A stretch of 64,000 nucleotides of DNA from Lunularia cruciata (lineage: Eukaryota > Streptophyta > Marchantiopsida > Lunulariales > Lunulariaceae), in NCBI GenBank assembly GCA_948567375.1, contig OX419759.1, forward strand, positions 56,572,593 to 56,636,592, in the 5' to 3' direction. Below are positions 21,664 through 46,186 of the stretch, piece by piece (within the stretch, counting starts at the first letter, position 1; every line of letters begins with the position of its first letter). Made by a program: the position numbers and the translations under genes. The notes under the pieces are model-generated. The model did no database searches and was not told where the DNA came from. It saw only the letters and a program-made list of their open reading frames with translations.

Positions 21664-22305
21664 TGTGACAACTTGGTAAATATCACTTTTGCGGTAATCA
21701 AGTAAGTAAATTTTGTTCCCATAAAGATATGAGTCAAAAATGTCCAAATACAAAGTCAAAGTAACAATCTCAGTTCTTCTTGGCTGAGTCTTTAGTCTCT
21801 CAGGTAGAAACCACACCCAGAAGAGAGTAACAAGCATTGATGTGTAGTATTGTCACAAATTAACACTTCTTAATCACAACTCTATCAAATCTTTCCAAAC
21901 AATCTTGATCGTGATGATATAAGTTCTCCCAAAAATGGCACTTCATTGCAAAATGACTTTGCCTCAGAATTTTGTTCCACCCTTCCACTGAAGGCACAAC
22001 TTCTTCAATCAAAATTGCTCTACATCAACTTTGCGCTGCACTCACAAATGTAGAATACTACAACACTACAATTCCTCTTAGATTTATCAAGGCATTGTCC
22101 CAATTGCACTTCACTCAAGATCAAACACACCGAATGAAGATCATGGTTGTGGAATCCAACATCCAACATGCACACTGACTTGCACTTTGAATTTCTCCAC
22201 ACACTCATAAATACAATCACAAAATTGATACTCAATATTAAGCTCAAACAATGAGCATTGCTTCACAACACTTTGCTTTATCTATTCTCAAAAATCATTG
22301 GCACT
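21664..22305 (-). mobile_element. GL-d giant LTR, left part
   Basis: It starts TGTGACAAC inside the N-terminal coding region of GL-c and follows the LTR tail. It is interrupted by gypsy-C after GGCACT and resumes at 35957, where the tail continues with TTAACAACATATG and the usual TTAAATAGTG word. Confidence 0.83.
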
Positions 22306-22755
22306 TGTCACGCCATTTGTAGTTCCGCATCTAAATGCTCAGACACTAGAGTTCTAATGATAGTAGTTAGAGTTATTCTAGCAGTTTCTTAGAGACTACT
22401 TTCCGACGGTTAGATTTTGTGTTTGGGGTACTGACTTCATGGTGGGGCCTACCGTCACTTTGCACCGTTTGCACCGTCGAGTGTGCCATCAGCAGTACCG
22501 TTAGGGTTTCAGTGCTAGCTTGAGTCCAGGGGGTATAGTTTCAAAGTGAGCTCCAGAGAGCTCACTTCTTTGATGTTGAGCCTTCAAGTTCCTGGCTATG
22601 GTGGACAGAGGCCGGCAAGCGTCACTTGGATTCTCTATGCTTGAGTGGGTTTGGCTTGACTGTAATTAGTGCCCAGTTGTTGGTAGTTTATAGAGTGATA
22701 GATCAAGTATTGATCTGAGTTGAGTTGAGTTGAGAGTGGTAAGCAATCTGATTAC
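22306..22755 (+). repeat. Gypsy-C left LTR, lacking its first ~107 bases
   Basis: It matches 35403-35850 from TGTCACGCC to GCAATCTGATTA and ends in ACA. The first ~107 bases of the right LTR (35296-35402) are absent here. The same bases instead appear after the right LTR (35852-35956). Confidence 0.85.
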
Positions 22756-24067
22756 ATCAGAGAAGTGAAGTCAGGGGGAAATCGGGTGCAAGACTTTGAT
22801 TGTTGGTGGTATCTCCAAGCTCGGTGGATCGTGGTAGCTTGATTCAAGTTCTGTGCTTCCCTAGTGTGCAAAAGCTTGTTTAGTTGATGCAGATTTGGCA
22901 GTTAGGCGGATGGCATGCGGAAGCGCTGGCCAAATTTTGAGCAAAGAAGGAACAATTTTCGAGCAATGTTGTGATTTTGAGCTCAGGAGGTGAAGACATG
23001 ACCAATTTGCTACGAGTTGAGCTCAGAAAGTCAAATTGAAGGTGTAGCTGGGAAGCTCTTCTCATGAAATTGTCATTTGGAAAAACCCGTTTTGTCAATT
23101 TGGCTCGAGTGGAAAGTTAGCGGGGGATTTGGCGGACAGCTATCTTTAGGGTTTACATCAGATTTTGGCCAGAATTGGAGGAGTTTTTGCTGTCTGGCCA
23201 GATTTGGAGGAGTTTTGCTAGTTTGGAGGACTTTCATATATTTGGAGAAGTTTTGCCAATTTTGGAGGAGGTTCAAAGTGGCAACAAGAAAGGCCTCATT
23301 TGGCTGAATTTTGGCGTTTAGAGGCATAGGGCTGTGGGCTATGAGAGGCTACGAAGGCCTAGAAGGGCCTGCTTGCTGGCGTGAGGCTAGCTAGTTTAGA
23401 GTAGATCTTGGTCATTGGTTGGCAAAATCTGCCTTTCCTGCTAGATTGTGTGCAACAGGGTTTGACCCCTAGATCTCTTGTTCCTAGACTGGTGCCCTAG
23501 CCAACTGGTCCACCCTCACTTGTTGTCATACTCACTGTGCCACTATTATCTATACACATGTAGCTTTGGCTAGGAGAGACAGTTTGATTCCATTCTTGGT
23601 GATCCTGGTAGCTTAGGATTTAGATACGAACTCCTATTATGTCAAATGCCAAATGGTGGCAGAGTCAGTCTCGTGTTGTGTTATGAGATGGAGGGTTTTT
23701 GTTTAGATTTCTTGTGATTGGATCCCCTCCATTCTCTGCTTCCTGTTTGTGCACCACGTTTGTGTGAGGTGCCCTGAATTTGAGCGTTGGTGCTTTGGTG
23801 TGCTCTCGGTGGTGAGGCTAGAGTGATGACCAGTCAGACTACCTTTGTTTCTCTCTGGTGATGCAGGAAGTGATGACCTGCAGACCGTGAGAGTGCGTGT
23901 TATGATGGCAGGTCACAGGTTGCCCTTTCCCCTAGTGTAGTTATCTTGGTTAGAGTTACATTAGTGGGTGGTGCTTAGTTGGTACTAGCACTTGGTGGTG
24001 TTGGCACTTGGTAGAGCACTTGCGGTTGCAGTTGGTGGTTCGGGTTTGCTATTGTGGTTACTTGGTC
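22756..24067 (+). other. Gypsy-C leader region
   Basis: About 1.3 kb lies between the left LTR and gag. The first bases (TCAGAGAAGTG) do not clearly match a plant tRNA 3' end, so the primer site is uncertain. The open frames here are short and unconserved. A tRNA-like segment lies at 23452-23515 on the other strand. Confidence 0.55.
23452..23515 (-). repeat. tRNA-like / SINE-head-like segment
   Basis: The minus strand reads GGGTGGACCAGTTGG then CTAGGGCACCAG, close to a pol III A box. It continues with a CTAG/CTAG anticodon-stem-like pair and then GGGGTCAAACCCTG, close to a B box with a T-arm-like stem. Length and spacing resemble the tRNA-derived head of plant SINEs. No 3' tail, target duplication or second copy was seen in the window, and it is not a clean tRNA gene. 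Confidence 0.45.
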
Positions 24068-25703
24068 ATGACGGAGTTCTTTGGAGATTCCAGAGGAGTT
24101 AGCCTTGCAGTACACAGTGGGTTTACTCGGAGTGGTGCTCGGTATCAGCCTGTATCTCAGGTCCTAGTGAGGGGGGAGATTGACTTTGAGTTGGAGTTCG
24201 ACACAGGAGCTGATTCAGTTGAGAGTGCACTTGGTGTGTCCGCACCGTTGTTGTGGGACATGGACAAGATTTATGGGGCTCCAAAGGCCCTAGGCGTTAC
24301 TTTGGTACAGTGGGTACCATTGAGTTGGATCACTTCATCCAAGAGTTTGACAGTTGGTGTGATCTGCAGCAGATGCGGAACCCAACTTTGTTCACACCCT
24401 TCATGGCATGGAAGGGGTTGTTTCAGCACTTGGAGGGTCCGCCAATGGATGACTACCATGAGTTCAGGAGAGCTCATTTGGAGGAGATTGAGTTATGGAG
24501 ACAATATTGGTCTCCACACTATGTCTCCATCACTTCAGGTTTGGTGGCCATGAGTAGATCGGCTGTACCTACAAGTTCTAGCTCGAGTAGTGTTGGTGGA
24601 GCTAGTGGAGGTGCACTAGCTGGAGATAGTGCTACTACGAGTGGAGGTACCGCTGCAAGAGGTGGTGTGGTACCGGGGTTTAACCCCATGGTGGAGTTCT
24701 TCCTATGTTCAAGGTAGAACTACCAGGGAGTGCAGACTGACAAGCTGAGAAGCTTGCATGAGTTCCAGCGGAAGGCTAGAGAGAGCCTACGCGAGGCATA
24801 TACTCGCATGAGGTGGCTGATCAGTTTCACTCAGGGAGTTATTGAGGCCCAGGCAGTCCAATTTTGGTATGGGATACTAGATAGGGAGTTGTGACATAGA
24901 GTTCGTGATGCTATGTTGTTGTAGGCTACTTCGCCCACTTTGGCAGTAGTCTTTGGTTTGGCTGAGCGTATTGAGCTCAATATGGTGGAGGAGAGAGTGG
25001 TGACATCTGGATTTGGTAGGGAGACCTCATCCACGGCTGTGACTTCTTCTAGAGTACAGCAGAGTGCACCACGCCCAGTTGGTTTTTGAGGACAAGGTGG
25101 ACAGCCCAGAGCCTATGGAGCAAGTGGAGGGCCTAGTGGAGTTAGACTCTTACCCTCATTTTTGGGTCAGCAGCAGCCAGTGAGTGGTGGTGTTGCTTGT
25201 TGGACTTGTGGTGGACCTCACCATAGGAGAGAGTGTACTCAGGGCAGCGGACCTGATACCTTTGGTGCATCACAGCCAGCACAAAGGCAGTGTGAGCATT
25301 GCCACAGATTTGGTCACACTAGTGACCGGTGTTTTGACCAACACCCGGAGTTACGGAGTGGTAGGGCCGCTATGGCAAGTAGTAGAGGAGCTCCAATTCA
25401 TGGAGGACGAGGTGGTAGAGGTGGTGGTAGAGGATCTACACCTAGTAGGGGTGCAGTACCTGCCCTTACTTCTGACACAGCTATGGCTACTCGGATTGAG
25501 CAGTTGGAGCAGAGATTGGCTAGTATGGCTATTGCTCAAAGGAGATCAGATTCGGGTGCTGAGGCTTCCACCTCATATGCTGGTGATAGAGATGCTTTGG
25601 ACTTCATGTGCGGAGCAGCCCAAGTGGATGCATTTGCAGCAGTGACTAGGAGTGCAGTACGTGCTCTAGAGCCTAGAGGAGCATCAGTGGAGTTGGACCC
25701 ATA
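24068..25703 (+). pseudogene. gag: gag of gypsy-C with two CCHC zinc knuckles
   Basis: The likely start is the ATG at 24068 ('MTEFFGDSRGVSLAV'). A frameshift near 24285 leads into the capsid core: 'ELDHFIQEFDSWCDLQQMRN', 'FMAWKGLFQHLEGPPMDDYHEF' and, after Ser/Gly-rich sequence and a stop, 'LHEFQRKARESLREAYTRM'. Two knuckles follow: 'CWTCGGPHHRREC' (CX2CX4HX4C, about 25197-25235) and 'CEHCHRFGHTSDRC' (about 25290-25330). An arginine/glycine-rich stretch comes next (about 25400-25450), as in many RNA-binding nucleocapsids. Stops at 24718, 24892, 24922 and 25087 fit C-to-T change of CAG or CGA, apart from the first. Confidence 0.85.
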
Positions 25704-26933
25704 GAGAGGAGAGGTTGAGAGATAGGTCAGACTTCCCCAGTCTTTCACACTATCTGAGGCATTACAGATGACATCCATGGTTCCTAGACTTCCCAGTGTA
25801 GATGTGGTAGGTAGTGATGGAGTACATGATGGACTACCTGCTAGTCAGCCACCTGCTACTACCGAGACTGAGTCTAGCATGATGTTGAGGGCGGCTCAGC
25901 TGATTATGCGACGTCCTTTGTTTTCGGCCAGTGATATGTTTACATTGGGAGTTGACCCAGCCCCAGTATTTTGGTTGGCTGCCACATTGTGTGAGAGTAG
26001 GGATGGTGCAGTTCCTACTACTAGAGCAGAGGTGGTTGGTAGTGGAGCTGACTTGGTTGAGGAGCATGGGATCCGTTCAGCGACCACTGGTTTATGGCAG
26101 GCAGTAGCGGCTAGACTGGAGGAGTTGCCAACTAGACCGGCCTTTGAGCGAGCGCAGTTTACACCTGGTGTTGTCCTATTGGATAACCAGAGGGGGATTT
26201 TTTGTTTGGTGGGACCTTCAAGGAAGGTCTATACACCACAGCGAGTCTTGTTAGACTCTGGTGCGCATCCCCTTATGTTGGGGAAGGCTGCAATTGTCGG
26301 TCTGGAGTTACGGAAGACCGATGTGGAGAGGTGTCCATTTCAGATCCAGACATCTCTAGGTGGTGGTGCGACACAGTACATCACACGTGGAGAGCTTGTT
26401 GTCCAGGTTCAGCCTGGTCATCCGACTGATAGCTCGGTGATGAGAGCTCAGGCTATTGCGACGATAGCTGAGTCATATGATGTGCTAGTTGGGGGAGCAG
26501 TGTTATACCCCATGGGTTTCAGCATTGACTATTGGGAGGAGACAGCCTCTTATAGACCTGGTTGGCAGTTTGGTGAGGGACGGGTATGTCGCCTACCAAT
26601 ACGCTTCAGTAGTGGCAATCTTGGCTCACTACAGTCCGGGACCATGGCAACATCAGTTTTAGCTTTCAATGGTGTACTTACTTGGCCTGGTGACTTGTTG
26701 GAGGGGAACGCCCATGCAGAGGATACTCCAGTACCAGAGGAGATCACTTGGCTTTGGAGTACGAGTGGGATTTTCCATTGTGGAGTTCAGAGGAGGCATT
26801 GCAACAGCATGCAGATCAGTTAGTGCAGCAGGCTTGGAGTGGAGCCTTTGTACCATCAGGAGATGAGTGTGAGGATGAGCCTCCAGAGGCGATTGCTTTG
26901 ACACCTCTGGATACCACACTCATTGCTTGGTAG
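25704..26933 (+). pseudogene. Aspartic protease region of gypsy-C
   Basis: The 351-codon open frame 25768-26823 carries 'RVLLDSGAHPLMLG' (about 26239-26282), the D-S-G active site of retroviral-type proteases, and later 'YDVLVGGAVLYPMGFSID' as the flap-distal motif. An N-terminal extension of about 150 residues before the site is not recognised. A frameshift near 26750 moves the protein to the frame that continues 'FPLWSSEEALQQHADQL', then a TAG at 26931 where CAG would be expected. The methyltransferase domain begins directly after it in that frame. Confidence 0.8.
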
Positions 26934-26936
26934 TAT

Positions 26937-27963
26937 CCAGTAGAGGGGATATGCCTATTGGAGTTGTTTGGTGGGATCAGCACCGGACTAGCTGTGGTGT
27001 TACAGGCGGGTATACGAGTACAGAGGTACTTGTATGTAGAGAGGGATGAGACTGCTAGGCGAGTCTCTCTACATCATGTGGCGCACTTGGCCTATCGGTA
27101 TCCGGAGTTATTACTGATGTCAGCAGTCAGAGGTTACCAGAAGGCCCTACCAGGAGACATTTCCTTACTGGGGGCGCATGACCTAGAGAGACATGGGCCT
27201 ATTCACTTGGTGATTTCTGGATGGCCATGTCAGGGACATACACGTGTGGGCCACGGTTTGGGTCTTCAGGATCCTTGTTCCGGTGTGTTTAGGGAGATGT
27301 TATAGATACTACGACATCTCCAGGTTCATCAGTCTATTTCTCCAGCTTACCTTCTGGAGAACGTTCCTTTGTTGGGTGATTCTTGCACCAGAGTGGTGGC
27401 AAGTACACATCAGTTCCATTCTTGGATGGGACTTGCTGTATTGTTAGATGTAGCCAAAGTGGGATCACAGGCTCATCGTCTTTGTCTTTGGTGGACGAAC
27501 CTCTTACCTGGAGAGGTTCTATAGCGTGCTTATGATGGGATTCAGCAACTGGACCACATTCTTGTTGATGATATCTTGGATGTTGGGCGTTAGTCTCAGA
27601 CAGTGGTAGTGGCTGATAGGTCACCTATGGCAGTGGTGAACCTAGTTGGACAGCCTAGAGCTGCATTTCCCACACTCATGAGTTTCCTTGGCTCTCATGC
27701 TTTTCAAGAGGGAGGACCTGGACTTGTTTGGGACTCACAGTTACAGCAATTGGTGGAGCCCAACGCTGATGAGAGAGAGCGGGCGATGGGTTTTTGCATT
27801 GGTATTACCGCTATTCCAGTAGTGTCAGAGGCATCCAGGCGTCAGGTCTTAGGTCAAGCTATGGACCTGAACTGTTTGACTTGGATTGTGAGCCTTGGCT
27901 TGGCAGAGCAGCATAGGATGCGCTTGATAGGCATCACCACTCGGACACTTGTGAGCCCTGTGC
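26937..27963 (+). pseudogene. Cytosine-5 DNA methyltransferase domain inside gypsy-C pol
   Basis: The ordered motifs of C5 methyltransferases are present in one frame. Motif I (SAM binding) is 'LELFGGISTGL' (about 26957-26990). The acidic motif II region is 'LYVERDETARR'. Motif IV is 'VISGWPCQGHT', with the catalytic Cys codon at 27228-27230. Motif VI is 'LLENVP' (27354-27368). The motif VIII-like segment is 'VGSQAHRLCLWWTN' (about 27447-27491). A variable target-recognition stretch follows, then 'RERAMGF' and the motif X-like 'VLGQAMDLNCLTWIV' (about 27846-27890). Spacing and the AHR-x-x-x-W form of motif VIII look closest to the DNMT3/DRM de novo class; that subclass call is inference. It would transfer methyl groups to cytosine. 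TAG stops at 27303, about 27522 and near 27595 break the frame but no motif is lost. It lies between protease and RT, in the polyprotein frame. Confidence 0.87.
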
Positions 27964-28300
27964 CTATCGAGACAATTCAGGCACATGCTGGGGGCAATGG
28001 ACCGAGTGGACATGGTATTCTTGGGACACATCCAGTAGCTACCAGGGAGAGTGCTCTACTTGGAGTCCATCCAGGTGAGCGTGGGCTACTTGGATTACAC
28101 CCTTGGTCCACATGGGATGCAGCCAGAGGACGTATGGAGCTTGTAGCCAGAGTGGAGGGAGTTTTTCACACAGAGGTTGGGACCTCTAGTGGTCGGGAGC
28201 ATGACACTATTGCTCCCAAGGGCCCAGTGTAGCAGTCAGTCAGTACGTCTTCCACTCCTACTACAGTTACAGAGGATACTTGGGAGCCAGATCTTGGACC
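27964..28300 (+). pseudogene. Linker between methyltransferase and RT with three LLGxHP repeats
   Basis: After the methyltransferase the frame continues through a Gly/His-rich linker with three spaced copies of a short motif: 'GILGTHPV', 'ALLGVHPG' and 'GLLGLHPW' (about 28014-28110). It ends at a TAG (28230-28232) where CAG is likely, then 'TWEPDLGPKLTREERR' leads into RT. I do not recognise the linker. It may be a flexible hinge or a protease cleavage region. Confidence 0.6.
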
Positions 28301-29720
28301 CAAGCTTACTAGAGAGGAAAGACGGAGGGTTTGGAGGTTCTTGAGGAGTCACACGAGTTGTTTTGCCTTTAGTATGAAGGATTTGGGTGCTTTGAAGGGA
28401 CCTGGTATACGGATTGAGCTGACTAGTGACACACCAGTTTTCCGATGTCCTTATCAACATAGTGATATGGAGAGGACATTGATTCAGAGCCGGAGTAGTG
28501 ACCTTTTTGAGGCTGGTTTGGTGGAGATTTCACATGGAGAGTATGCATTAGCAACAGTGATGCCAGCCAAGAAGGATATGCATGACAACTATACAGATAG
28601 GCGGATGTGTGGAGATTACCGTCCTATCAACCGACAAACCAAGGCTGATCGGTATGCCATGCCTACACCGGAGGAGATTTTTGATGCAATTGGGCATGCA
28701 AAGGTCTTCAATACTTTGGATCTTTGAGCGGGATATCATCAGTTGCCGATCAGGGAGGAGGATAAGTCCAAGACAACATTTTGGGTTATTGATCCTCACG
28801 GCAAGGATGTGTTATATCAGTGGAGGTTCTTACCATTTGGGGTAAAGAATGCTCCTACTGAGTTCCAGAGGGTCATGGATAGGATCCTAGTTGGATTGGA
28901 TTTTGCTTGGTGCTATATTGATGACATTTTGGTTTATAGCACTACTGTGGAGGAGCATGAAAGACAGTTGTTGGAGGTGTTTTGAGAGGTTGAGATCTCA
29001 TGGACTCAAATTACATCCTAGGAAGTGTAGGTTCTTCCATGAGCAGGTTGAGTATTTGGGTCACCCTATCTACCCCGGAGGACTTGGTGCTCAACAGACC
29101 AAGGTGGAGGCTATTGCACGTATTCCTTGGCCTACGGATGTGAGCAGAGTGCGAGCATTCCTTGGGTTGGCAAGCTGTATCGCTGCTATGTTAGAGGATT
29201 TAGTGCCGTTGCCAAGGCCTTGACGAAGCTGACCAAGCTTACACACGAGTGGTGTTGGGGAGATGAGCAGGAGAGAGCTTTTGTAGAGCTCAAGGAGAGG
29301 TTGACATATGCTCCTATTTTGAGGAGACCGATTAGGGGACGACCATTTTGAGTTCACACTGATTGGAGTATGTTGGGGCTTGGAGCGGTGCTCACCCAGC
29401 ATGATGATGAGGGGAAGGAGTTTGTGGTGGCCTGTGCTAGTCGTTCCAACAATTCAGCGGAGGTGAAGTATAGTTCATATGAGGGAGAGTGCTTGGCAAC
29501 AGTTTGGGCAGTAGCACATTTCCGATGTTACCTATTTGGTAACCCCTTCACTCTCATCTCTGATCATCAGCCGCTAAAGTGGTTGATGGAGTCCAACAAG
29601 CTTTCAGGGAAGCTTGCATGATGGGCTCTGATTTTACAGGAGTATGATTTCATGGTTGTTCACAGACCTAGAGTGGTGAACCGTGATGCAGATGGGTTGA
29701 GTAGAAACCCATGTCCCAGC
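28301..29720 (+). pseudogene. Reverse transcriptase and RNase H of gypsy-C
   Basis: RT motifs in order: 'CGDYRPINRQTKADRYAMP' (about 28610-28665), 'FNTLDL' then TGA where CGA is expected, 'AGYHQLPI', 'FLPFGVKNAPTEFQRVMD', and the catalytic 'CYIDDILVYS' (about 28909-28938). After a TGA and a frame change the connection reads 'ECSRVRAFLGLA'. RNase H follows: 'HTDWSMLGLGAVLTQHDDEG' (about 29350-29410), 'SSYEGECLATVWAVAHFRCYL', 'LISDHQPLKWLMES', 'NRDADGLSRN'. Stops at about 28725, 28983, 29349 and 29619 are TGA and fit CGA-to-TGA. The domains are typical of gypsy, and the catalytic residues I can place are still present. Confidence 0.9.
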
Positions 29721-30671
29721 CAGTAGGATCAGACCGGAGCACGTTGGCATGGTGAAACAGATGAGGAGATGGTGCCAGGTTGGCATGCATCAGCCTTTCT
29801 GTGTATATTTGCAGAGGCTTTGGTGGTATCTCTCTCAGCGCATACAGGAGGAGTTATTGAGGTCACAGATCCAAAGAGTGAAGATATTGGTACAGTTCAG
29901 CGAGACATTCATGATGATATCTTAGTGATGGACTATCTTTGCACTGGTGTTGTGGGTGGCACAGTTGGGACCAAGGAGAGAGACCGTGTTCTTCAGCAAG
30001 CCAGACGGTTCAGATTGGAGGGGAGACACCTTTTGCATGTATGGGAGGATGGTAGAGTGCGAGTAGTACCACTTCCATCACAGAGACCACAGTTGGTCTG
30101 TCATGCTCATGAGGAGCTAGGACATTTTGGAGTAAAGTGTACATATAGCTTACTCCAGAGTCATTATTGGTGGCGTGGTATGCAGACCGAGGTACATTAG
30201 TTTGTTGCCAGATGTGTGGTTTGTGACCGAGTTAGAGCATCATTCAATGTTCCTACGCCACAGTTACACCCATTACCTATCATGGGATTGGGTTACCGTT
30301 GGAGTTTGGACTTTGCTGGACCTTAACCGCTGACTGTGAGACATCATCGGTACGTTTTGGTGATGGCGGAGCACTTCTCCAAGTGGATTGAGTTGGTGGC
30401 ACTTCCTGACAAGTCTAGTGAAGGGACAGCTTACTCGTTCCTAGATCGAGTTCTTAGTCATTTTGGTGCCCCAGCTGAGGTTTTGACTGATCAGGGTACA
30501 GAGTTCTTGGGGGAGTTTCAAGTCTTGTGTGACAAGGCTTTGATTGATCATCATACTACATCCCAAGATCACCCTGGGCAGATGGCTTAGCATAGAGAGT
30601 GGTTCAGATGGTGAAGAGAGGATTGCAAAAGTATGGTTTGCGAGAGGCCACTTGGGAGATTGGGATCTCCA
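29721..30671 (+). pseudogene. int: Integrase, N-terminal part, gypsy-C
   Basis: The HHCC zinc domain runs 'HAHEELGHFGVKCTYSLLQ ... HYWW ... CVVCDRV' (about 30098-30232). The catalytic core starts 'WSLDFAGP' (first D) and continues 'VLVMAEHFSKWIELVALPDK' and 'VLTDQGTEF' (second D, about 30480-30507). A TAG at about 30588 falls near the expected catalytic Glu region. Solo LTR GL-e interrupts the gene after 30676; the C-terminal half is at 34454-34960. Confidence 0.88.
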
Positions 30672-30676: not shown

Positions 30677-31455
30677 TGTGACAACCCGACAAATATCACT
30701 TTTGTGGTAATCGGGTAAGTAAAGTTTGTTCCCCAAGAGATACAAGTCAGAAATGTCCAAATACGAAGCAAATAGTAACAATGTAGTTCTTCTTGAGTTC
30801 TTCTTTAGTCTCTCAGGTAGAAACCACACCCAGAGAAGAGAGTAACAAGCACTGACTCGCAGTCTTGTCACAAATTCAAACTTCATAATCACAACTCCAT
30901 CAAATCTTTCCAAACAATCTTGATTGAGAGGATTCAGGCTCTCCCAAAAATGGCACTTCACTGCAAAACGACTTCGCCTCAGAATTGTGTTCCACCTCTC
31001 CACTGAAGGCACAACTTCCTCGATCAAAATTGCTTCACATCAACCTCGCACTGCACTCCCAAATGCAGAATACTACCAACACTACAATTCCTCTCAGATC
31101 TGTCAAGGCATTGCTTTGATTGCACTTCACTCAGGATCAAACACACAAAATGAAGATCAAGGCTGTGGAATCCAACATCCAACAAACACTCTGACTTGCA
31201 CTTCGAATTTCTCCAACCACTCACAAATCGGAATCAAGCTCAAGCGACAAGCACTGCTTCACAGCACTTCGCTTTATCTATTCTCAAGAATTATGAGCAC
31301 TGAACAACATTTCTCTACGAATGCCACTCTTAAATAGTGAACAAATCGTCAGTTCTAACATCTATACCGTTCTACCACAACTGTTCTAACCTGTAGATCC
31401 AAAATCACAATGCACCTCTTCATATCTACCCCTTCAAATCTCAAATCTGTTACCA

Positions 31456-34040
31456 CTATGATCCGATGTCTACTTTGTCATCGGCTTTCAAACCCAAACG
31501 CGAAGTAATCTTACTTCCTACTACATTTTCCTTGGGTTTCATATCTTCTACTTCTTCTACCAGATCCAGCAATTCTCTTTCCTGATCTGAAATTTCACTA
31601 GTGGGTAATCTATCTAACTCCTTAACTCCTGACCCACTCTTCTCTAATGTCTCTGAGGGCAACTCCAAAGACATTTGGACTCCTATGTTATCTACTTCGG
31701 GTTTTGCTTTAACATCTTTCCAAAGTTTTTCTAACTCTATTTTCACTAAGTCTAATCTAATGGAAATGTTATCCTCCAAAACCTTCCTATCTACACAAGT
31801 TCTTAATTTTATTAACAAGGCATTCATCTCCATGTCCTTTGCTTGTCTTCGCCTTGTCTCCTGCACCAACAACTTCAACTCGTGCAGACGCGCTTCTTCA
31901 ATTCGAACGCTGGCTTCTATACTTAACATTGCATTCACCCGGAGGACTATCTCCTGCAATGGCTCCAATCTTGTCTTCCTTTCTCGCTCCCGATCCGCAA
32001 GCCATTCCTCTTGGTACATTGCCAACTCTTCCTCGAACTCGGCTTTCACCACTTCCTTCTCTTTCTTCTTCTGTACAACTTTCTCTTCCTGATTACGAAG
32101 TAGCTCTTGTAATCTTTCTTCTTCTCTATATCTCGCAGCCAACTCTCGTTGCCAGAGTTGCTTCTTCTCCTCCATACTCTCCATCTCTCTATCGAGCTCT
32201 TGATCCTTTGCTGCTACCCTCGCCATAGCATAGATAAGCTTTACTCTTGAATCAGCAAACTGCTGCTTCAAGATTTTGTACTCCGCTACCTATCTCTCTC
32301 TTGCAATGTCACTCTTCCTCGCAAGATCTTCTTGATAGCTCACTTCTCTCTTCAGGTCTTCGATTACCTGACTTCTCTCTACTGCCTCCGCTCGCAATAC
32401 TTCTCTCTCCTCCTCACCTCGAGGAGGAGAGAGAAGTGAGCTATCAACTCCTCTTCAACTCCAAGTTCTCCTCTTCTAATCTTGCCACCACCTGCAATAT
32501 AGTCTTTACCTCTGGACAAGTCGACTGCATCTCCTTCTTCTTCTGCTCCAACTTCACCAACAACATGCACACTACCTCTCGCAGGTACTCTACTCCCTCA
32601 TTGGCAACTTCTTCCTCCCACGGAGTAGGTTCTCTTTTCTCCTCGTGTTCTCCTGATACTCGCCTTCTTCTCTGAAGTCTTTGTATCGGGATTGATGCCT
32701 CACTGCCCGAGCTTCCTTCCGCCTCTTCCTTCATTCTACTCGGCCCCACTTCACACTTCGCCTTACGTCGCAAGCGAACTCCTCGCTGCACTGCGATCTT
32801 CTTCTCCTCGGGCACCGGTACTTCGTCTTCCAACGCTGCATTGTCTTCGGCTTCTACTTCGGCTTGCACTTCTTCTTCGTATTCTTCAGCCGCTGGCGCC
32901 GAGGTCATTTCTCCACCGTCTTCACTGTCACTGCTCATATCTCCGCTCTGCAGTGTTAGTTCAGGTTCCTCCTCATGCTCCGAGTCCTCCGTTTTGAGCT
33001 CGGCCTCGCTTTCTGAGTCTTCATCTTCTGACTCAATCACCACCATTCCTTGCCTCGGGTTATTTTTCTGCATCTTCCGAGGTTTCTTGTTTTCTTCAGC
33101 TTCAGCTTGCCGAGTTCTCTTCTTTGTCGGGGTACTTACTACAACTTCTACATTTTTTCCCTGTCTTTGCATAGTAGTCATCCGTGCTCCGGATTTGGAG
33201 AATATATTGCTGCTCCTTGACATCGACTTCCTTTTGCACATCCAGATGGAAGTGCAACACCATCCAATTTTGCTCCCTCGAGGTCAGAAAATTGAGCCCG
33301 AGGTAGAAGTGCGCCGCAAATGGCACAATGTAATGTGGAGGCGACTTATCCCGCAGATTCCACACCATCTGCCTCGTTCTCCCATGAAAACACCTCGCTC
33401 GATTTATAGGCTCTCCTGCAAACAATTTGTGAAAGAACACCGCTTGGTGTTTCATCACATATGTTGTTCTCTCCGGCTTCAAGATCACCATCAAAGCACT
33501 CACAATTCCTCTCTTGACAGGATCTTTGTAACTTTCTACCTTGTACCCATTCTTCATTCTCTTTGACGAGAAGGTATCTCTCACCTCTTGCGTTTCTTGG
33601 GCTATCTCTCCTTTCCCCAAGAATGTGGCTCCCTGCTCCGAGCCCGCCTCCTTCCCGAGTACGAGTCTCCAATCCAACTCTGTCCAGCGAGCCGGATTTC
33701 CTCTCTTCCCTTCTTCCTCGGGACCATCGAGACACTTACTCTCGATGATTTCTGTCATGAATCCTGGAAAACTTACGTTCCAGTTCCATGCCAGAAAGGT
33801 GATCCGAAGTCGGCTCAAGACTTTGATCCTCACGATCACATCTAATCTCCGAATTGCCTGATTTCTCACTGCAAATTCGGAGTTCTTCTTCCCTCCTCCC
33901 ATCTCTTCTGCTTTCTCACTTTCTCTCGATTTCACTCTTGCGACTTCTTCCTTTTGCACTAACACGAGCCCAACTCTATTTCCCTTTCCCCGATCACCTG
34001 CAAGACGACTCCTCAATGGCGAAGGAAAATTGCTCGACAT
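31456..34040 (-). pseudogene. LTR-encoded coiled-coil protein, GL-e copy
   Basis: The first in-frame ATG is at 34040 (minus strand; 'MSSNFPSPLRSRLAGDRGKG'). An upstream GTG-started extension is unlikely in a eukaryote. Order: a basic N-terminus, then a conserved globular domain (about 33300-33850) with 'ITFLAWNWNVSFPGFMTEII', 'NPARWTELDWRLV', 'GATFLGKGEIAQET' and 'YIVPFAAHFYLGLNFL'. Next come a Lys-rich patch, the acidic region (32830-33060) and a long charged coiled coil (31900-32560). The C-terminus is conserved with 'DNISIRLDLVKIELEKLW'. No signal peptide or membrane segment is seen. Frame breaks near 33160 and at the inverted duplication 32399-32437 disable it. Function unknown. Confidence 0.8.
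32399..32437. repeat. Perfect 17-base inverted duplication in GL-e coding region
   Basis: Arms 32399-32415 and 32421-32437 are exact reverse complements with a 5-base loop (ACCTC). The following bases GAGCTATCAA are the complement of nearby 32333-32342. GL-f lacks this, so it is a local snap-back insertion. Confidence 0.9.
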
Positions 34041-34453
34041 TTCGTCGTTGCAATTTTGATTTTTATAGAGTTGCACTTCTTTGTCTTCCGTCACTTCGAG
34101 TTTCTACCGAGAAATCACACCTTCGGCATGCACCTGTCACTGTCAATCAACCTGCACGCGTATGAGCTGCCAGTTTTGAAACAGCCCCTTCTTGAATTTC
34201 TCACCCCGATGAAAGGTTGTTAGACTGTCTTCGCCTTGGGTTGAGCTCCCCCCGATCCGAAGACAATTTACTTCGGGTTGTATGCTGACAGGGCATTTCC
34301 GAGTACTTTGCCTTATGACCCAAAGTCACTTTACTTTGGGTTCCATCCCGAAGACTCTTTTCTTTGCCTTCTTTGGCCATACAGGCACAATCCGACTTCT
34401 CTATACACTTCTTCTCCTTTATTTTGAAAAACACAAAAAATGTGGGCACCACA

Positions 34454-34960
34454 GTTACCTTGATTGGCCATGGGCTATCGATTTAGCCGGAAAGCCTCCT
34501 TAGCATCCTTCTCTCCATACTTTCTACTCTATGGACGAGATCCAGATTTACCTACAGCCATTCGTCGAGATGCTACTGTAGTTTTGGACTTGGATGACCC
34601 CGATGTATGGATGAGCGCATGTTCTCAACGGGCAAAGATCTTTTGGAGAGTGATGCCAATGGCCTTTGAGAACTTGGCAATTGCTCAGCATAGAGATACT
34701 TTACGCTATGCTACCATTCAAGGAGGAGGTTATAGACCCTCGATCCATCGATTTCATCCAGGCGACTATGTATATCTACAGCAAACAGCACCGACGGCAC
34801 TTGATGTTTCTACAGGCCGCACTATCTTGAGAGTGCATGAGGTTTTGCCATCTGGATTCCTTGTGTTAGAAGGACGTGATGGTGTTGTTTGGAAGGATCA
34901 TGTGCGCAATTGTGCGCCATGCCACCTTCCAAACATTGATGGTACTATGGACCCAAGCTT
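34454..34960 (+). pseudogene. int: Integrase, C-terminal part, gypsy-C
   Basis: It resumes right after the second GTTAC: 'LAMGYRFSRKASLASFSPYFLLYGRDPDLP', with the core helix region in one open frame of about 210 codons (34464-35102). It continues through 'HRFHPGDYVYLQQ' to a GPY/F-like beta domain 'RTILRVHEVLPSGFLVLEGRDG'. 'VRNCAPCHLPN' ends the integrase, then the frame enters the PHD finger without a break. Confidence 0.87.
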
Positions 34961-35126
34961 GGCACTTGTACGTGCAGGCTTGAGGTGTATGTTATGTGGC
35001 TCTTCTGGTGGAGCTGCTACTATGTTAGTGTGTGATAGTTGTTTGAGAGGATGGCATATGACATGTATGACTCCTCCCCTCATGGTGGTCCCTCAAGGAT
35101 AGTGGTTATGTCCTAGATGTACTTGA
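34961..35126 (+). pseudogene. PHD zinc finger at the integrase C-terminus, gypsy-C
   Basis: The Cys4-His-Cys3 ligand pattern is complete: 'CMLC' (34986-34997), 'CDSC', 'WHMTC' (His and Cys ligands with the conserved Trp before them), then 'WLCPRC' (35103-35120). PHD fingers bind histone H3 tails, typically at K4. A single TAG at 35100, just before 'WLCPRC', interrupts it; it lies in the loop before the last Cys pair. Position and reading frame suggest it served as a chromatin-targeting module in place of a chromodomain. That role is inference. Confidence 0.83.
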
Positions 35127-35295
35127 CCTATAGCTAGTTCATTCTTTATATGGTATAGATTGCAGATAGGCGACTAACAATGGGGCTCCATAGCACCCGG
35201 CCTCCTCATCTTTACCCATTGGAGGGTATACCATATACTTAGAGTAGATGGCTATCTGGAGTTAGAGGGACCTAACCGCCAGCTAGGGGGGCGAT
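35127..35295 (+). other. 3' untranslated segment and polypurine tract of gypsy-C
   Basis: A short non-coding segment ends in CTAGGGGGGCGAT (35283-35295), a polypurine tract directly before TGTGGCAC. This position supports TGTGGCAC as the true LTR start. Confidence 0.7.
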
Positions 35296-35850
35296 TGTGG
35301 CACTTTAGAGTCTATGTATGACTTATGTGTGAGTTGTGCTTCTATAGTGTATGATGTTGACAGCAATGTATGTTATGTAGCCATGTATATACGCACAACA
35401 ACTATCACGCCATTTGTAGTTCCGCATCTAGATGCTCGGACACTAGAGTTCCAGTGATAGTAGTTAGAGTTATTCTAGCAGTTTCTTAGAGACTACTTTC
35501 CGATGGTTAGATTTTGTGTTTGGGGTACTGACTTCATGGTGGGGCCCACCGTCACTTTGCGCTATTTGCACCGTCAAGTGTGCCGTTAGTGGGACCGTTA
35601 GGGTTTCAGTGCTAGCTCAAGTCCAGGGGTATAGTTTTGAAGTGAGCTCCAAAGAGCTCACTTCTCTAATGTTGAGCCTTCGAGTTCCTGGCTATAGTGG
35701 ACAGAGGCCGGTGAGCATCATTTGGATTCTCTATGCTTGAGTGGGTGTGGCTTGACTGTAATCAGTGCCCAATTGTTGGTAGTTTATAGAGTGATAGATC
35801 AAGTACTGATCTGAGTTGAGTTGAGTTGAGAGTGGTAAGCAATCTGATTA
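35296..35850 (+). repeat. Gypsy-C right LTR, full length
   Basis: A 555-base unit from TGTGGCAC to CTGATTA, preceded by the polypurine tract. From 35403 on it matches the left LTR at 22306-22755. It lacks the terminal CA seen in the left copy. Confidence 0.82.
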
Positions 35851-35851
35851 T

Positions 35852-35956
35852 TGTGGCACTTTAGAGTCTATGTATGACTTATGTGTGAGTTGTGCTTCTA
35901 TAGTGTATGATGTTGACAACAATGTATGTTTTGTAGTGATGTATATACGCACGACA
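35852..35956 (+). repeat. Repeat of the gypsy-C LTR start after the right LTR
   Basis: It repeats 35296-35402 (TGTGGCACTTTAGAG ... TATATACGCAC) and stops exactly where the left LTR's sequence would begin. The junction CTGATTA-T-TGTGGCAC resembles an LTR-LTR circle junction. GL-d resumes afterwards. Confidence 0.85.
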
Positions 35957-36680
35957 CACTTAACAACATATGATTGCAAATGCCACTCTTAAATAGTGAA
36001 GCAAACAACAGTTACTAACAACTATACCGTTTTCTAGCAACTCTTATAACCTACAGACCCAAAATGACAATGCACCTCTTCATATCTACCTCTTCAAATC
36101 TCAAAATTGTCACAACTCCAATCCAATGTCTACTTCTACCTTGGCTTTCAAACCCGAATTAACCTCACATACTACTCTATCCTCGGGTTTCACAACTCCT
36201 AATTCCTCTACCAATTCTAACACTTCTCCTTCATGATCTACAATTCTTATCATAGGTATGCTTTCTAAATCTCCAACCCACTCTTCTCTAAATCCAACCC
36301 ACTCTTCTCTAAAGTGTCAAATGTCAAATCCAAACACACCTGCACTCTTACTTCTACAACATTGGGTCTAACTACTATCAATTCCTTTGCTAATTCTAGT
36401 ATGTCCTCATCAAAAGTTGTAATTGAAAGCATGGGTACACTATCTACGCCTTTAATTTCCAACCCACTTTCCCCTAATCACTCATGTAACTGACCCAAAG
36501 ACACTTCTTGATTGATCTTGCACTTTGGGTTCATTCACAATTGCTACCTCTCCTCCGAATCTATCTTAATGTATCATGGGTATCCTAACTATCTTCTTTC
36601 TCTATCCTAACTATTTCAGACGCTTCAGATATTTGACCCAAAGACTCTTACATCCAATGTTTGACTACCTTGGATTGAAT
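35957..36680 (-). pseudogene. GL-d giant LTR, right part, with duplicated C-terminal module
   Basis: It continues 21664-22305. On the minus strand the C-terminal part of the LTR protein is recognisable ('TLEKSGLD', 'LVEELGVVKPED'-like). The module is present at least twice in tandem (about 36100-36290 and 36300-36480), including a direct repeat of the CCAACCCACTCTTCTCTAAA word. Homology fades beyond about 36680. Confidence 0.65.
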
Positions 36681-37898: not shown

Positions 37899-40800
37899 TG
37901 TGACAACCCGACAAATATCACTTTTGCGGTAATCAGGTAAGTAAAGTTTGTTCCTGTAGAGATACAAGTCAGAATTGGTCAAATACGAAGCAAAGTAACA
38001 ATTTCAGTTCTTCTTGAGTTCTTCTTTAGTCTCTTAGGTAGAAACCACACCCAGAAGAGAGTAACAAGCACTGACTCGCAATCTTGTCACAAATTAACAC
38101 TCCATAATCACAACTCCATCAAATCTTTCCAAACAATCTTGATTGTGATGATTCAGGCTCTCCCGAAAATGGCACTTCACTGCAAAACGACTTTGCCTCA
38201 GAATTGTGTTCCACCCCTCCATTGAAGGCACAACTTCCTCGATCAAAATTGCTTCACATCAACCTCGCACTGCACTCACAAATGCAGAATACTACCAACA
38301 CTACAATTCCTCTCAGATCTGTCAAGGCATTGCTTCGATTGCACTTCACTCAGGATCAAACACACAAAATGAAGATCAAGGCTGTGGAATCCAACATCCA
38401 ACAAGCACTCTGACTTGCACTTTGAAGTTCTCTAAACATTCACAAACACAATTGCAAAGTTGATACTCGGAATCAAGCTCAAGCGACGAGCACTGCTTCA
38501 CAGCACTTCGCTTTATCTGTTCTCAGAAATTATGAGCACTGAATAACATGATACTGTGAATGTCACTCTTAAATAGTGAATCAATCAACAGTTCCAACAA
38601 CTATACCGTTCTACTGCAACTGTTCTAACCTGCAGATCCGAAATGACAATGCATCTCTTCATATCTGCCCCTTCAAATCTCAAATCTGTTACCACCAGGA
38701 CCCGATGTCTACTTCTTCCTCGGCTTTCAAACCCGAACCCAAAGTTACTTTACTTCCTAATATTCTATCCTCAAGTTTCACATCTTCTACTTCTTCTACC
38801 AGATCCAGCAATTCTCTTTCCTGATCTGAAATTTCACTACTGGGTAATCTATCTAACTCCTTATCTCCCGACCCACTCTTCTCTAATGTCTTTGAGGGTA
38901 ACTCCGAAGACATTTGGACTCCTATGTTATCTACTTTGGGTTTTGCTTTAATATCTTTCTGAAGCTTTTCTAGCTCTACTTTCACTAAGTCTAATCTAAT
39001 GGAAATATCATCCTCTACCTCCAAAACCTTCCTATCTACATGAGTTCTTAATTTTATTAACAAGGCATTCATCTCCATGTCCTTTGCTTGTCTTCGCCTC
39101 GTCTCCTGCACCAACAACTTCAACTTGTGCAGTCGCGCTTCTTCAATTCAAACGATGGCTTCTGTACTTAAAATTGCATTCACCCGGAGGACTATCTCCT
39201 TCAATGGCTCCAATCTTGTCTTCCTTTCTTGCTCACAATCTGCAAGCCATTCTTCTTGGTACATCGCCAACTCTTCCTCGAACTCGGCTTTCACCGCTTC
39301 CTTCTCTTTCTCCTTCTGTTCAATCTTCTCTTCCTGATTACGAAGTAACTTGCGTAATCTCTCTTCTTCTCTATATTGCACAGACAACTCTCTTTGCCAG
39401 AGTTGCTTCTTCTCCTCCATACTCTCCATCACTCTATCAAGCTCTTGATCCTTCATTGCTACCCTCGCCATAGCATGGATAAGCTCTACTCTTGAATCAG
39501 CAAACTGCTGCTTTAAGATTTTATATTTAGCTACATGTCTCTCTCTTGCGATGTCACTCTTCCTCGCGAGATCCTCTTGATAGCTCACTTCTCTCTTAAG
39601 GTCTTTGATTACCTGACTTCTCTCTACTGCTTCCGCTCGTAGTACTTCTCTCTCTTCCTCACCTCGGGCTACACTCCTCTTCAACTTTGAGTTCTCCTCT
39701 TCTAATCTTGCTACCACCTGCAATATAGTCTTTACCTCTGGACAAGTCGACTGCATCTCCTTCTTCTTCTACTCCAACTTCACCAACAGCGGGCACACTA
39801 CCTCTCGTAGGTACTCCACTCCATCACTGGCAACTTCTTCCTCCCACGGAGTGGTCTTTCTCTTCTCCTCGTGTTCTCCTGATACTCGCCTTCTTCTCTG
39901 AAGTCTTCGTATTGGGATTGATGCCTCACTGCCTGAGCTTCCTTCGACCTCTTCCTTCACTCTACTTGGCCCCGCCTCACACTTCGCCTTTCATCTCGAG
40001 CAAACTCCTCGCTGTACTGCGATCTTCTTCTCCTCTGGCACTGGTACTTCGTCTTCCAGCGCTGCATTGTCTTCGGCTTCTACTTTGGCTTGCGCTTCTT
40101 CTTCGTATTCTTCAGCCGCTGGCGCCGAGGTCATTTCTCCACCGTCTTCACTGTCACTGCTCGTATCTCCACTCTGCAGTGTCAATTCAGGTTCCTCCTC
40201 ATGTTCCAAGTCCTCCGTCTTGAGCTCGGCCTTGCCTTCTGAGTCTTCATCTTCTGACTCAATTACTACCATTCCTCGCCTCGGGTTGTTTTTCTACATC
40301 TTCCGAGGTTTCTTATTTTCTTTGGCTTCAGCTTGCCGAGTTCTCTTCTTTGTCAGGGTACTTACTACAACTTCTACATTTTTCCCTGTCTTTGCATAGT
40401 AGTCGTCCATGCTCCGGATTTGGAGAATGTACTGCTGCTCCTCGACATCAACTTCATTTTGCACATCCGGATGGAAGTGAGACACCATCCAATTTTGCTC
40501 CGCTAAAGTCAGCAAATTGAGCCCGAGGTAGAAGTGCGCCACAAATGGCACAATGTAATGTGGAGGCAACTTATCCCCCAGGTTCCACACCATCTGCCTC
40601 TTTCTCTCGTGAAAACACCTCGCCCAATTAATTGGTTCTCTTGCAAACAATATGTGAAAGGACACCGCTTGGTGTTTCATCACATATGTTGTTCTCTTCG
40701 GCTTTGGGATCGCCATCAAAGCACTCACAACTCCTCTCTTGACAGGATCTTTGTAACTTTCTACCTTGTACCCATTCTTCTTTCTCTCCGATGAGAAGGC

Positions 40801-41664
40801 ATCTCTCACCTCGTGCATTTCTTGGGCTATCTTTCCCTTCCCCAAGAATGTGGCTCCCTGCTCCGAGCCCACCTCCTTCCCGAGTACGAGTCTCCAATCC
40901 GACTCTGTCCAGCGAGCCGGATTTCCTCTCTTCCCTTCTTCCTCGGGACCATCGAGACACTTACTCTCGATGATTTCTGTCATGAATCCTGGAAAACTTA
41001 CGTTCCAGTTCCATGCCAGAAAAGTGATCCAAAGTCGGCTCAAGACTTCAATCCTCGCTACTACATCTAATCTCCGAATTGCATGATTTCTCACTGCGAA
41101 TTTGGAGTTCTTCTTCACTCCTCCCATCTCTTCTGCTTTCTCATTGTCTCTCAATTTCTCTCTCGCAACTTCTCCCTTGCGCACTAACATGAGCCCGACT
41201 CTATTTCCCTTTCCCCGATCACCTGCAAGACGACTCCTCAATGGCAAAGGAAAATTGCTTGACATTTTGTCGTTGTAGTTTTGATTTTTATAGAGTTGCA
41301 CTTCTTTGTCTTCCGTCATTTCGAGTTTCTACCAAGAAATCACACCTTTAGCATGCACCTGTCACTGTCAATCAACCTTCGCGCGTATGAAACGGCCTCT
41401 TTTTGAATTTCTTGCCCCGACAAAAGGTTGTTAGACGGTCTTCACCTCGGGTTGAGCTCCCCATGATCCGAAGACAATTTACTTCGGGTTGTATGCTGAC
41501 AGGGCATTTCCGAGTACTTCACCTTATGACCCAAAGTCACTTTACTTTGGGTTTCATCCCGAAGACAATTTTCTTCGCCTTCTTTGGCCATATAGGCGCA
41601 ATCCGACTTCTCTATACAGTTCTTCTCCTTTATTTTGAAAAAAACAAAAAATGTGGGCACCACA
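37899..41664 (-). mobile_element. GL-f: intact 3.77 kb solo LTR of the GL element
   Basis: It runs from TGTGACAACC to GGGCACCACA, flanked by TCATG on both sides (37894-37898 and 41665-41669). It is the same unit as GL-e at an independent site. It carries the LTR protein frame on the minus strand. Confidence 0.94.
38689..41265 (-). pseudogene. LTR-encoded coiled-coil protein, GL-f copy (least broken)
   Basis: From the ATG at 41265 to the stop at 38689, about 858 codons with only about four in-frame stops and no obvious large indel. Stops near 40296, 39988, 39769 and 39145 separate open runs. The domain order is as in GL-e: conserved N-terminal domain (about 40480-41100), Lys-rich patch, acidic region (39990-40272), coiled coil (39150-39760, heptads such as 'LRNQEEKIEQKEKEKEAV'), and C-terminal 'DISIRLDLVKVELEKLQ'. 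The stops where Q is expected before 'KKKEMQS' and 'KNNPRRG' fit CAG/CAA changes. Being the most continuous copy, it gives the best view of the protein. Confidence 0.82.
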
Positions 41665-45773: not shown

Positions 45774-46159
45774 TGTGGTGCCCACATTTTTTGTTTTTTT
45801 CAAAATAAAGGAGAAGAAGTGTATAAAGAAGTCGGATTGTGCCTGTATGGCCAAAGAAGGTGAAGAAAATTGTCTTTGGGATAAAACCCGAAGTAAAGTG
45901 ACTTTGGGTCATAAGGCAAAGTACTCGGAAATGCCGTGCTAGCATACAATACGAAGTAACTTGTCTTCGGATCGGAGGGAGTTCAACCCGAGGCGAAGAC
46001 AGTCTAACAACCTTTCATCGGGGTGAGAAATTCAAGAAGGGGCCATTTCAAAACTGGCGGCTCATACGCACAAAGGTTGATTGACAATGACAGGTGCATG
46101 CCGGAGGTGTGATTTCTCGGTAGAAACTCGAAGTGACGGAAGACGAAGAAGTACCACTC

Positions 46160-46167
46160 TATAAAAA
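46160..46167 (+). promoter_or_regulatory. TATA box just upstream of the LTR-encoded frame
   Basis: TATAAAAA lies 27 bases before the ATG at 46187. The same arrangement is kept in the 3' LTR (56089-56096) and in solo LTRs GL-e and GL-f. The spacing is so short that transcription would start at or near the ATG. Confidence 0.5.
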
Positions 46168-46186
46168 TCAAAATTGCAACAACAAA

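Follow-up and report, generated by a model that had tools for sequence, protein, structure and literature searches.

Why would a retrotransposon carry the writer of its own silencing mark? This standing puzzle is raised by a stretch of 64,000 nucleotides from the liverwort Lunularia cruciata (contig OX419759.1, positions 56,572,593 to 56,636,592; hereafter the window), in which a retrotransposon holds a cytosine-5 (C5) DNA methyltransferase (DNMT) between its protease and its reverse transcriptase (RT). The element is of the KnitGypsy-Dnmt3 kind known from Klebsormidium nitens, i.e., it combines Ty3/gypsy coding domains and a DNMT3 with DIRS-like repeats and lacks two whole terminal long terminal repeats (LTRs). 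It belongs to an abundant and partly young family, and it extends a known algal oddity into land plants, with relatives in Sphagnum and in the experimental plant Marchantia. Two features change the view of how the element works, namely a DNMT that precedes a conserved UAG codon and so lies with Gag, and the DDE-type integration of split repeats.

The window domain is confirmed, far beyond chance, as a DNMT3-type C5 methyltransferase. A preliminary description of the window had recognized five C5 methyltransferase motifs between a retroviral protease and an RT. All five are present in the window copy. That description had also proposed a check against the profile PF00145. An open native copy of the element (P0001) matched it with 31.2 bits (cut-off 22, E 1.9e-7), whereas the DNMT pieces among the short open reading frames of the window, which are fragments, had no Pfam match. 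A family profile built from 13 sequences matched DNMT3A in the PDB at E 4.3e-22, and an AlphaFold2 model of the domain (pLDDT 90, pTM 0.90) also had DNMT3A as its best Foldseek match (E 2.4e-19). These three results rule out a chance match. The domain is closest to DNMT3, ahead of DRM, bacterial and DNMT2 enzymes, and the motif order in P0001 is, by eye, the common order and not the rearranged order of DRM. The catalytic Cys is kept in 33 of 35 related domains and the Glu of ENV in all 35, and both are present in P0001. A bacterial Dcm-like origin was rejected because the NCBIfam dcm profile reached 28.3 bits against a cut-off of 100.65 and DNMT3 scored better. DRM, DNMT1 and CMT were absent among the 50 rows listed by VIA-align, which does not exclude them. 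A host DRM-like methyltransferase exon with the motif GGSPCNNLSG and, by eye, a DRM-like order was seen in another fetched locus (L002, 706-1920, minus strand), as fits a host among the streptophytes.

Copies of the element were sought in an assembly of 566 Mb in 74 contigs, and the window copy was mapped by tblastn with pieces of P0001. On the plus strand the order is gag, zinc knuckle, protease, DNMT, RT, RNase H, integrase and PHD finger. The protease-RT-RNase H-integrase order is that of Ty3/gypsy elements, with rve and H2C2 integrase domains and a protease recognized by its DSG motif only. A host gene trapped between elements was rejected, as all 20 copies fetched at 10 kb can be aligned from the DNMT through the end of the second reading frame. 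The preliminary description had named copies without the domain as evidence that would count against it. In all four places chosen by RT and read (of 39), the DNMT stretch matched near the expected distance, over motif IV in three and over residues 976-1041 in one; places chosen by repeat A and read at both predicted distances contained the DNMT in two of four. The window copy is dead, with stops in the DNMT (three), gag, RT, RNase H, integrase and PHD finger plus a nested insertion, and the enzyme cannot be made from this broken and interrupted copy. Among 20 copies picked for long frames, the first frame extends over 1428 codons in L009 and L010, and the second, starting right after the UAG, over 1037 codons in L013 and L014.

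The element starts at the 5′ side with a repeat of 449 bp (A) and ends at the 3′ side with B-NN-A-t-B, where B has 105 bp. A1 begins with TGTCACGCCA and has no B in the preceding bases at 17 of 17 fetched 5′ ends, and B1-A2-B2 forms the 3′ end in the window and in 18 of 20 fetched copies, L017 and L025 being counted among the 20 as misses. Two whole direct LTRs, as in Ty3/gypsy elements, are thus not found at the ends, and the arrangement is the A-coding-B-A-B of the split repeats of DIRS type. DIRS elements are not known to leave a target duplication. The tyrosine recombinase of the DIRS type is not seen in the L. cruciata element, which has an rve integrase, no recombinase among its Pfam matches, and target duplications of 4 bp in 14 of 16 testable copies, plus the window (CACT) and L009 (TAGC), i.e., 16 of 18. 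The two misses are L021 and L013, and in the latter the A1/A2 divergence is large (K 0.154 for A and B together) and recombinant-like. The element termini are TG...CA, within an inverted repeat TGTC...GACA. Exact B-N(0-20)-A junctions occur 659 times genome-wide (control 0), and the spacer is 2 in every one of the 100 listed. For exact A-N(0-25)-B junctions the count is 1,580 (control 0), the firmest lower bound on the number of elements; 100 of these were listed, with a spacer of 1 in 95, of 2 in 3 and of 6 in 2. In L021 and at G000:C1:1218259, the one of the two listed places for which letters were shown, the spacer of six is CATCA+T, i.e., the first five bases after A1 plus T. Unusual structures were also observed in single copies. 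The junction with CATCA+T in L021 lies at about 9330-9375, between A2 and B2 of a young copy without target duplication. The 5′ part of L017 (1-2738) is replaced by the RNase H-integrase frame of another gypsy element (665 codons), and at its 3′ end (8924) only one B is present, beyond which unrelated sequence begins. In L025, a leader and A follow B1 in inverted orientation (8775-9498), which resembles an inverted copy or a self-insertion.

With a purine tract before B1, reverse transcription should define B-A as the terminal repeat. The TG...CA termini and the 4-bp duplications lie on split repeats, and a DDE-type integrase thus seems to join ends other than those that reverse transcription would set. 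This anatomy asks whether such an integrase can use an internal site of joined DNA. The simplest path to A-coding-B-A-B would be end joining followed by opening at GACA-NN-TGTC. Reverse transcription between the purine tract and a primer site after A1 would give DNA with a B-A terminal repeat, the B-A ends would be joined to form the A-t-B junction, and the integrase would open the joined DNA at the inner GACA-NN-TGTC to yield A-coding-B-A-B. The CATCA+T junctions are what end joining of reverse-transcribed DNA could leave. The main rival to end joining is a DIRS-like templated route, in which the split repeats would be copied as such from an RNA running from A1 to B2, with the inner B-A joint as the template that restores both ends, so that no joined circle is needed. 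Such a template role of the inner joint has been proposed for DIRS/PAT elements. The A-coding-B-A-B order common to DIRS and KnitGypsy-Dnmt3 is in its favour, as is the spacer of one base between A2 and B2 in 95 of 100 listed places. However, the purine tract lies where a standard plus strand would start, the 4-bp duplications and the rve integrase favour DDE joining and not a tyrosine recombinase, and the CATCA+T junctions resemble joined reverse-transcribed ends. The templated route is a real possibility, with a chance clearly below even.

The second feature is the UAG between the DNMT and the RT. The junction was compared in 49 records, of which 43 aligned. The exceptions were L001-L004, L039 and L029, the last being a second record of the L003 place. 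As four loci are represented twice, the 43 rows stand for 39 distinct copies. The codon after '...APKGPV' is TAG in every row and in all 39 distinct copies, and the six bases after it conform to CARYYA in 41 of the 43 rows, or in 37 of the 39 distinct copies. Identity to L014 across 1.2 kb is 95-99.5% for the 43 rows, which are hence not independent. The conservation carries weight because both sides of the UAG stay open in the less damaged copies and Marchantia proteins end alike: the first-frame products P0003, P0004 and P0009 (partial) end 79 amino acids past the DNMT, by eye at a similar place. Ordinary decay was rejected as the origin of the UAG, given 39 of 39 copies against at most 12 of 39 at any other position (codon 1254, within the DNMT). 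A frameshift between the DNMT and the RT was also rejected since the same frame continues on both sides. The DNMT closes a Gag-protease-DNMT frame, and RT, RNase H, integrase and PHD finger follow the UAG. The preliminary description had the domain built into the pol of a gypsy element; the gypsy domains stand, while a plain pol frame does not, as the DNMT lies upstream of the UAG on the Gag side.

UAG-CARYYA is the leaky stop context of plant viruses of the tobacco mosaic virus (TMV) type. Ribosomes would mostly halt at this UAG and occasionally read through it, so that Gag-PR-DNMT (PR, protease) would be made in excess as the main product and the Pol fusion as the minor one, and the DNMT would thereby enter the particle at about the level of Gag. 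This gives a concrete prediction for self-methylation, i.e., DNMT at Gag levels in the particle. Alternatively, the UAG would not be read through, and translation of the Pol frame would begin internally or use an RNA from which the stop had been spliced out. Consistent with this, the Marchantia and Sphagnum protein models P0008 and P0020, known from proteins alone, read as if the stop region were skipped, the first Met of the second frame in L010 lies 48 codons past the stop, and no stable stimulating RNA structure was found 3′ of the UAG in the one copy folded (z 0.65). The identical frame on both sides, the use of UAG only and the CARYYA context in nearly all distinct copies argue for readthrough, as does the general requirement of retroelements for a Gag-Pol fusion. 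A route without readthrough is therefore considered unlikely.

On these sequence features, the most likely role of the DNMT is that, produced in amounts like those of Gag and packaged with it, the enzyme would methylate the element complementary DNA (cDNA) before or at integration. A new copy would then start as silent, host-like DNA and be less harmful or conspicuous. A different target has to be weighed, namely that host DNA or chromatin is the main substrate, or that the domain binds DNA and does not act as a catalyst. De Mendoza et al. (PMC5890265) discuss effects on the host methylome in the text available, and GWECQ replaces GWPCQ in many metagenome relatives. Nevertheless, the catalytic Cys and Glu are retained, and a DNMT joined to Gag and protease should remain in particles; a host target or a purely binding role is considered unlikely. 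In addition, the very end of Pol in P0001 matches the PHD profile PF00628 with 42.6 bits (cut-off 24), and PDB matches of this finger include CHD4, KMT2D, PHF12, KDM5 and PHF21A. Several fingers of these types read unmodified H3K4. The likeness suggests chromatin targeting of the integrase by the PHD finger, comparable to the chromodomains of chromoviruses, and the finger may steer integration toward chromatin with unmodified H3K4.

Relatives of the element were sought with the DNMT and the RT. The 40 matches listed for the DNMT include Marchantia polymorpha (57-70% identity), Sphagnum fallax (50%) and Closterium (31%) plus metagenome and transcriptome rows. Among the best 120 of 2944 RT matches were Calypogeia fissa (80%), Riccia sorocarpa (89% over 40% of the query), Klebsormidium nitens (55% for P0076, 47% for P0138 and P0159), Haematococcus lacustris and rows with a code read as Tetraselmis, as well as Tanacetum, a seed plant, and one frog-labelled row, both at 38-43% and ordinary-gypsy-like. 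A second protein search from P0042 returned four proteins, with no Klebsormidium DNMT among them, and a scan of viral contigs gave one weak locus that was not used. Profiles placed the DNMT before the RT in 25 and after RNase H in 23 of 161 proteins (including P0001 and P0002), and a PHD finger was present in 63; these proteins were picked by likeness to the L. cruciata element and are no survey. On an RT tree of 129 rows built with FastTree, the placement after RNase H required 4 changes, as against 15 for the placement before the RT. In a quick DNMT tree (60 rows), the 25 'after' rows make up one side of a branch (SH-aLRT 99), while the 'before' rows were not so separated. Both trees are unrooted and carry long-branch or make-up warnings; their main groups agree by eye. 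The 'after RNase H' arrangement has the appearance of an old lineage, with DNMT and RT travelling together, and the two placements reflect either one capture with relocation or two captures, both of which fit the unrooted trees.

These comparisons bear on the origin of the L. cruciata domain, for which the preliminary description had offered membership of a reported lineage, from dinoflagellates or charophyte algae, or an independent capture. In domain set and DIRS-like repeat order the element is like that of Klebsormidium. A liverwort capture unrelated to that element could be argued from the lack of a Klebsormidium DNMT polyprotein among the matches listed and from the Klebsormidium RT rows, which fall in a clade separate from the L. 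cruciata element. Against this, repeat order and domain set are identical, the DNMT and RT trees agree in their main groups, the RT is 55% identical to P0076, and liverworts, moss and green algae all have DNMT-bearing elements whose RTs are related. An independent capture is thus not favoured and appears quite unlikely. Two further observations concern the relatives. In a set of 16 (P0022-P0036 and P0044), mostly with the DNMT between RNase H and integrase, 11 have GWEC, 4 have GWPC and 1 has no motif match, with the catalytic Cys retained in the 15 motif-matched proteins. An extra region past the PHD finger in P0030 (residues 1567-1881), also at the end of P0127, is possibly a second methyltransferase; P0030 contains DPWAGTG and TSPW there, and its likeness to adenine methyltransferases is weak (PF02086 E 0.16, below the cut-off; PDB E 0.6).

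The size, age and constraint of the family were also estimated. A PF00145 search of the genome gave 123 scored matches from 2161 candidates, some of which are host-type genes. DNA probes of equal length gave 4713 (DNMT) and 3993 (RT) first-look candidates, and a probe of repeat A gave 7369 (40 scored in each case). Differences between A1 and A2 (first 115-132 bases) and between B1 and B2 in 16 copies ranged from none within the stretches compared, in L014, to the value given above for L013; A1 and A2 of the window copy differ by K 0.079. The ratio of nonsynonymous to synonymous variants (pN/pS) common to at least three copies was 0.37 in the DNMT, 0.29 in the RT plus the start of RNase H, 0.25 in RNase H-integrase-PHD (20 copies) and 0.80 in the tail from the DNMT to the UAG, as compared with singleton values of 0.67, 0.74, 0.74 and 0.79, respectively. 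Shared and singleton variants differed for the DNMT (Fisher p 0.037) and the RT (0.0007). These counts omit insertions relative to L010 as well as codons that differ from the commonest at more than one base, and each site is represented only by those copies that have a base there. By these values the DNMT seems to be under purifying selection of about the strength acting on the RT. That the DNMT is a useless passenger is very unlikely: broken frames in many copies, the window's included, and the stop at codon 1254 would fit a passenger, but the shared-variant ratio, the persistence of the domain across liverworts, moss and algae and its presence in all four RT-chosen copies read do not.

Taken together, leaky-stop packaging of the DNMT, reverse transcripts with B-A ends, end joining with inner opening, cDNA methylation and steering by the PHD finger form a joint explanation to which we give an even chance. 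Several observations weigh against it. The selection figures are biased, since DNMT score and long frames guided the choice of copies. The DNMT has a premature stop at codon 1254 in 12 of 39 copies, stop variants common to at least three copies number 5 in the DNMT and 9 in the RT, reflecting either recurrent decay or the spread of copies without the whole enzyme, and the tail from the DNMT to the UAG is without constraint. Singleton C>T changes per site (CG 0.25, CHG 0.27, CHH 0.11; A/T transitions 0.039) fit plant-type silencing of inserted copies by the host and are uninformative on the enzyme of the element. A test of the Klebsormidium DNMT domain in yeast gave no methylation and is called inconclusive in the available text of PMC5890265. 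A joined circle with two repeats has two equivalent opening sites, but the other product was found in 0 of 18 copies read at both ends; the single-B end of L017 resembles it, but the 5′ part of that copy is replaced. No TGG-type primer site was seen after A1, L021 has no target duplication, and the RNA folding described above gave the UAG no stimulating structure. A broader reading, according to which these elements form a distinct and ancient class of plant retrotransposons from green algae to liverworts and mosses, with a Gag-level DNMT3 through a leaky stop, pre-methylation of the cDNA and integration from a joined-end circle that a DDE integrase opens at an att-like site within it, is doubtful. 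If it were true, each new copy would be silenced at birth, and the ends made by reverse transcription would be separate from those joined by the integrase.

The features of the window copy are listed in Table 1. The window contains four or more copies of a repeat of about 3.7 kb with roughly 87-95% identity, at 30677-34451, within the integrase of the DNMT element, and at 37899-41664, 45774-49541 (inverted) and 55788-59378 (inverted). Further gypsy-like RT stretches lie at 9120-9737 (minus strand), 44448-44991 (plus) and 53060-53683 (plus), with 32-41% identity to the RT of the element, and the DNMT query had no second tblastn match elsewhere in the window. The observed/expected CpG ratio is 0.37 in the first part of the element versus 0.42 in the window outside it and is uninformative.

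Table 1. Parts of the DNMT-bearing element in the window (positions within the 64,000 nucleotides)
Feature	Position	Strand	Basis
Target duplication, 5′ copy, CACT	22302..22305		Identical 4 bases at 35957-35960
Repeat A1, 5′ terminal repeat, start TGTC	22306..22754	+	92.6% identity to A2 across 447 bp
Sequence after A1, CATCAGAG..., in a primer-site-like position, without TGG start	22755..22772	+	Sequence and position only
gag region, broken	23981..25161	+	tblastn with P0001; four stops in the larger matched piece; two frames
CCHC-type zinc knuckle	25177..25374	+	tblastn with P0001, 95%; Cys/His pattern seen in the letters
Retroviral-type protease with DSG	26062..26664	+	tblastn with P0001, 93%; DSG motif; no Pfam match
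DNMT3-type C5 cytosine methyltransferase	26943..27911	+	tblastn, 90% identity to P0001 residues 1000-1322; three in-frame stops
In-frame UAG between DNMT and RT, then CAGTCA	28230..28232	+	Kept in 39 of 39 distinct copies
Reverse transcriptase, broken	28449..29088	+	tblastn with P0001 pieces
RNase H, broken	29253..29645	+	tblastn with P0001 pieces
Integrase zinc-binding domain and first part of core, ending at nested insertion	30063..30643	+	tblastn
Nested foreign repeat splitting the integrase, not element sequence	30677..34451		Alignment gap against copy L014; repeated elsewhere in window
Integrase remainder and C-terminal PHD finger (PHD 34977-35123)	34443..35123	+	tblastn, Pfam
Polypurine-tract-like AGGGGGGCGAT immediately 5′ of B1	35285..35295	+	Identical in 15 of the 19 copies compared, slightly different in the other 4
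Repeat B1	35296..35400	+	Repeat comparison
Repeat A2	35405..35850	+	Repeat comparison with A1
Repeat B2, 3′ terminal repeat, ends GACA	35852..35956	+	Repeat comparison
Target duplication, 3′ copy, CACT	35957..35960		Matches 22302..22305

The published cases consulted of retrotransposons with DNA methyltransferases come from dinoflagellates and charophytes. De Mendoza et al. (2018; PMC5890265) have described SymbioDIRS, SymbioLINE and KnitGypsy-Dnmt3, and the part available of a 2025 paper (PMC12344493) cites streptophytes and dinoflagellates for such elements. A 2019 paper (PMC6338049) states, in the part available, that transposons with DNA methylases are lacking in land plants such as tracheophytes. 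No report of DNMT-bearing retrotransposons from bryophytes was found in the titles and abstract starts searched, a scope outside which subscription papers and preprints lie. Bursts of gypsy elements and a genome estimate of 581 Mb have been reported for Lunularia cruciata (PMC9985172, in the part available). SymbioDIRS-Dnmt3 from dinoflagellates shares the retrotransposon DNMT3 and the A-coding-B-A-B repeats, according to the available text of PMC5890265. It belongs to an unrelated retrotransposon class with a tyrosine recombinase, whereas the L. cruciata element has a DDE integrase. Chromoviruses are gypsy elements with a chromodomain on the integrase. They share a histone-reader-type domain at the integrase C-terminus, but in the L. 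cruciata element this is a PHD finger and not a chromodomain, and DNMT and split repeats are added. The readthrough of gammaretroviruses (murine leukemia virus, MLV, type) and the UAG-CARYYA of TMV type share the in-frame UAG before the RT and the CARYYA context; in the L. cruciata element the stop comes after protease and DNMT, and readthrough is predicted. Orchid gypsy elements (PMC9289625, in the part available) also contain a captured nucleic-acid-modifying enzyme, although theirs is an m6A RNA demethylase in another element.

The closest known system is KnitGypsy-Dnmt3, which, according to the available text of PMC5890265, shares the DNMT3-type domain in a gypsy element, the gypsy domains with DIRS-like repeat order (stated in one figure legend) and purifying selection on the DNMT. 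In that text the words 'PHD', 'Marchantia' and 'target site' are absent, and 'stop codon' occurs once, for premature stops in Symbiodinium; for the L. cruciata element, target duplications and junction anatomy have been measured. The L. cruciata element differs from KnitGypsy-Dnmt3, as described in the same available text, in that it is present in more than 1000 copies in a liverwort and in that its DNMT ends a Gag-PR-DNMT frame, whereas a Pol polyprotein open reading frame is described for KnitGypsy.
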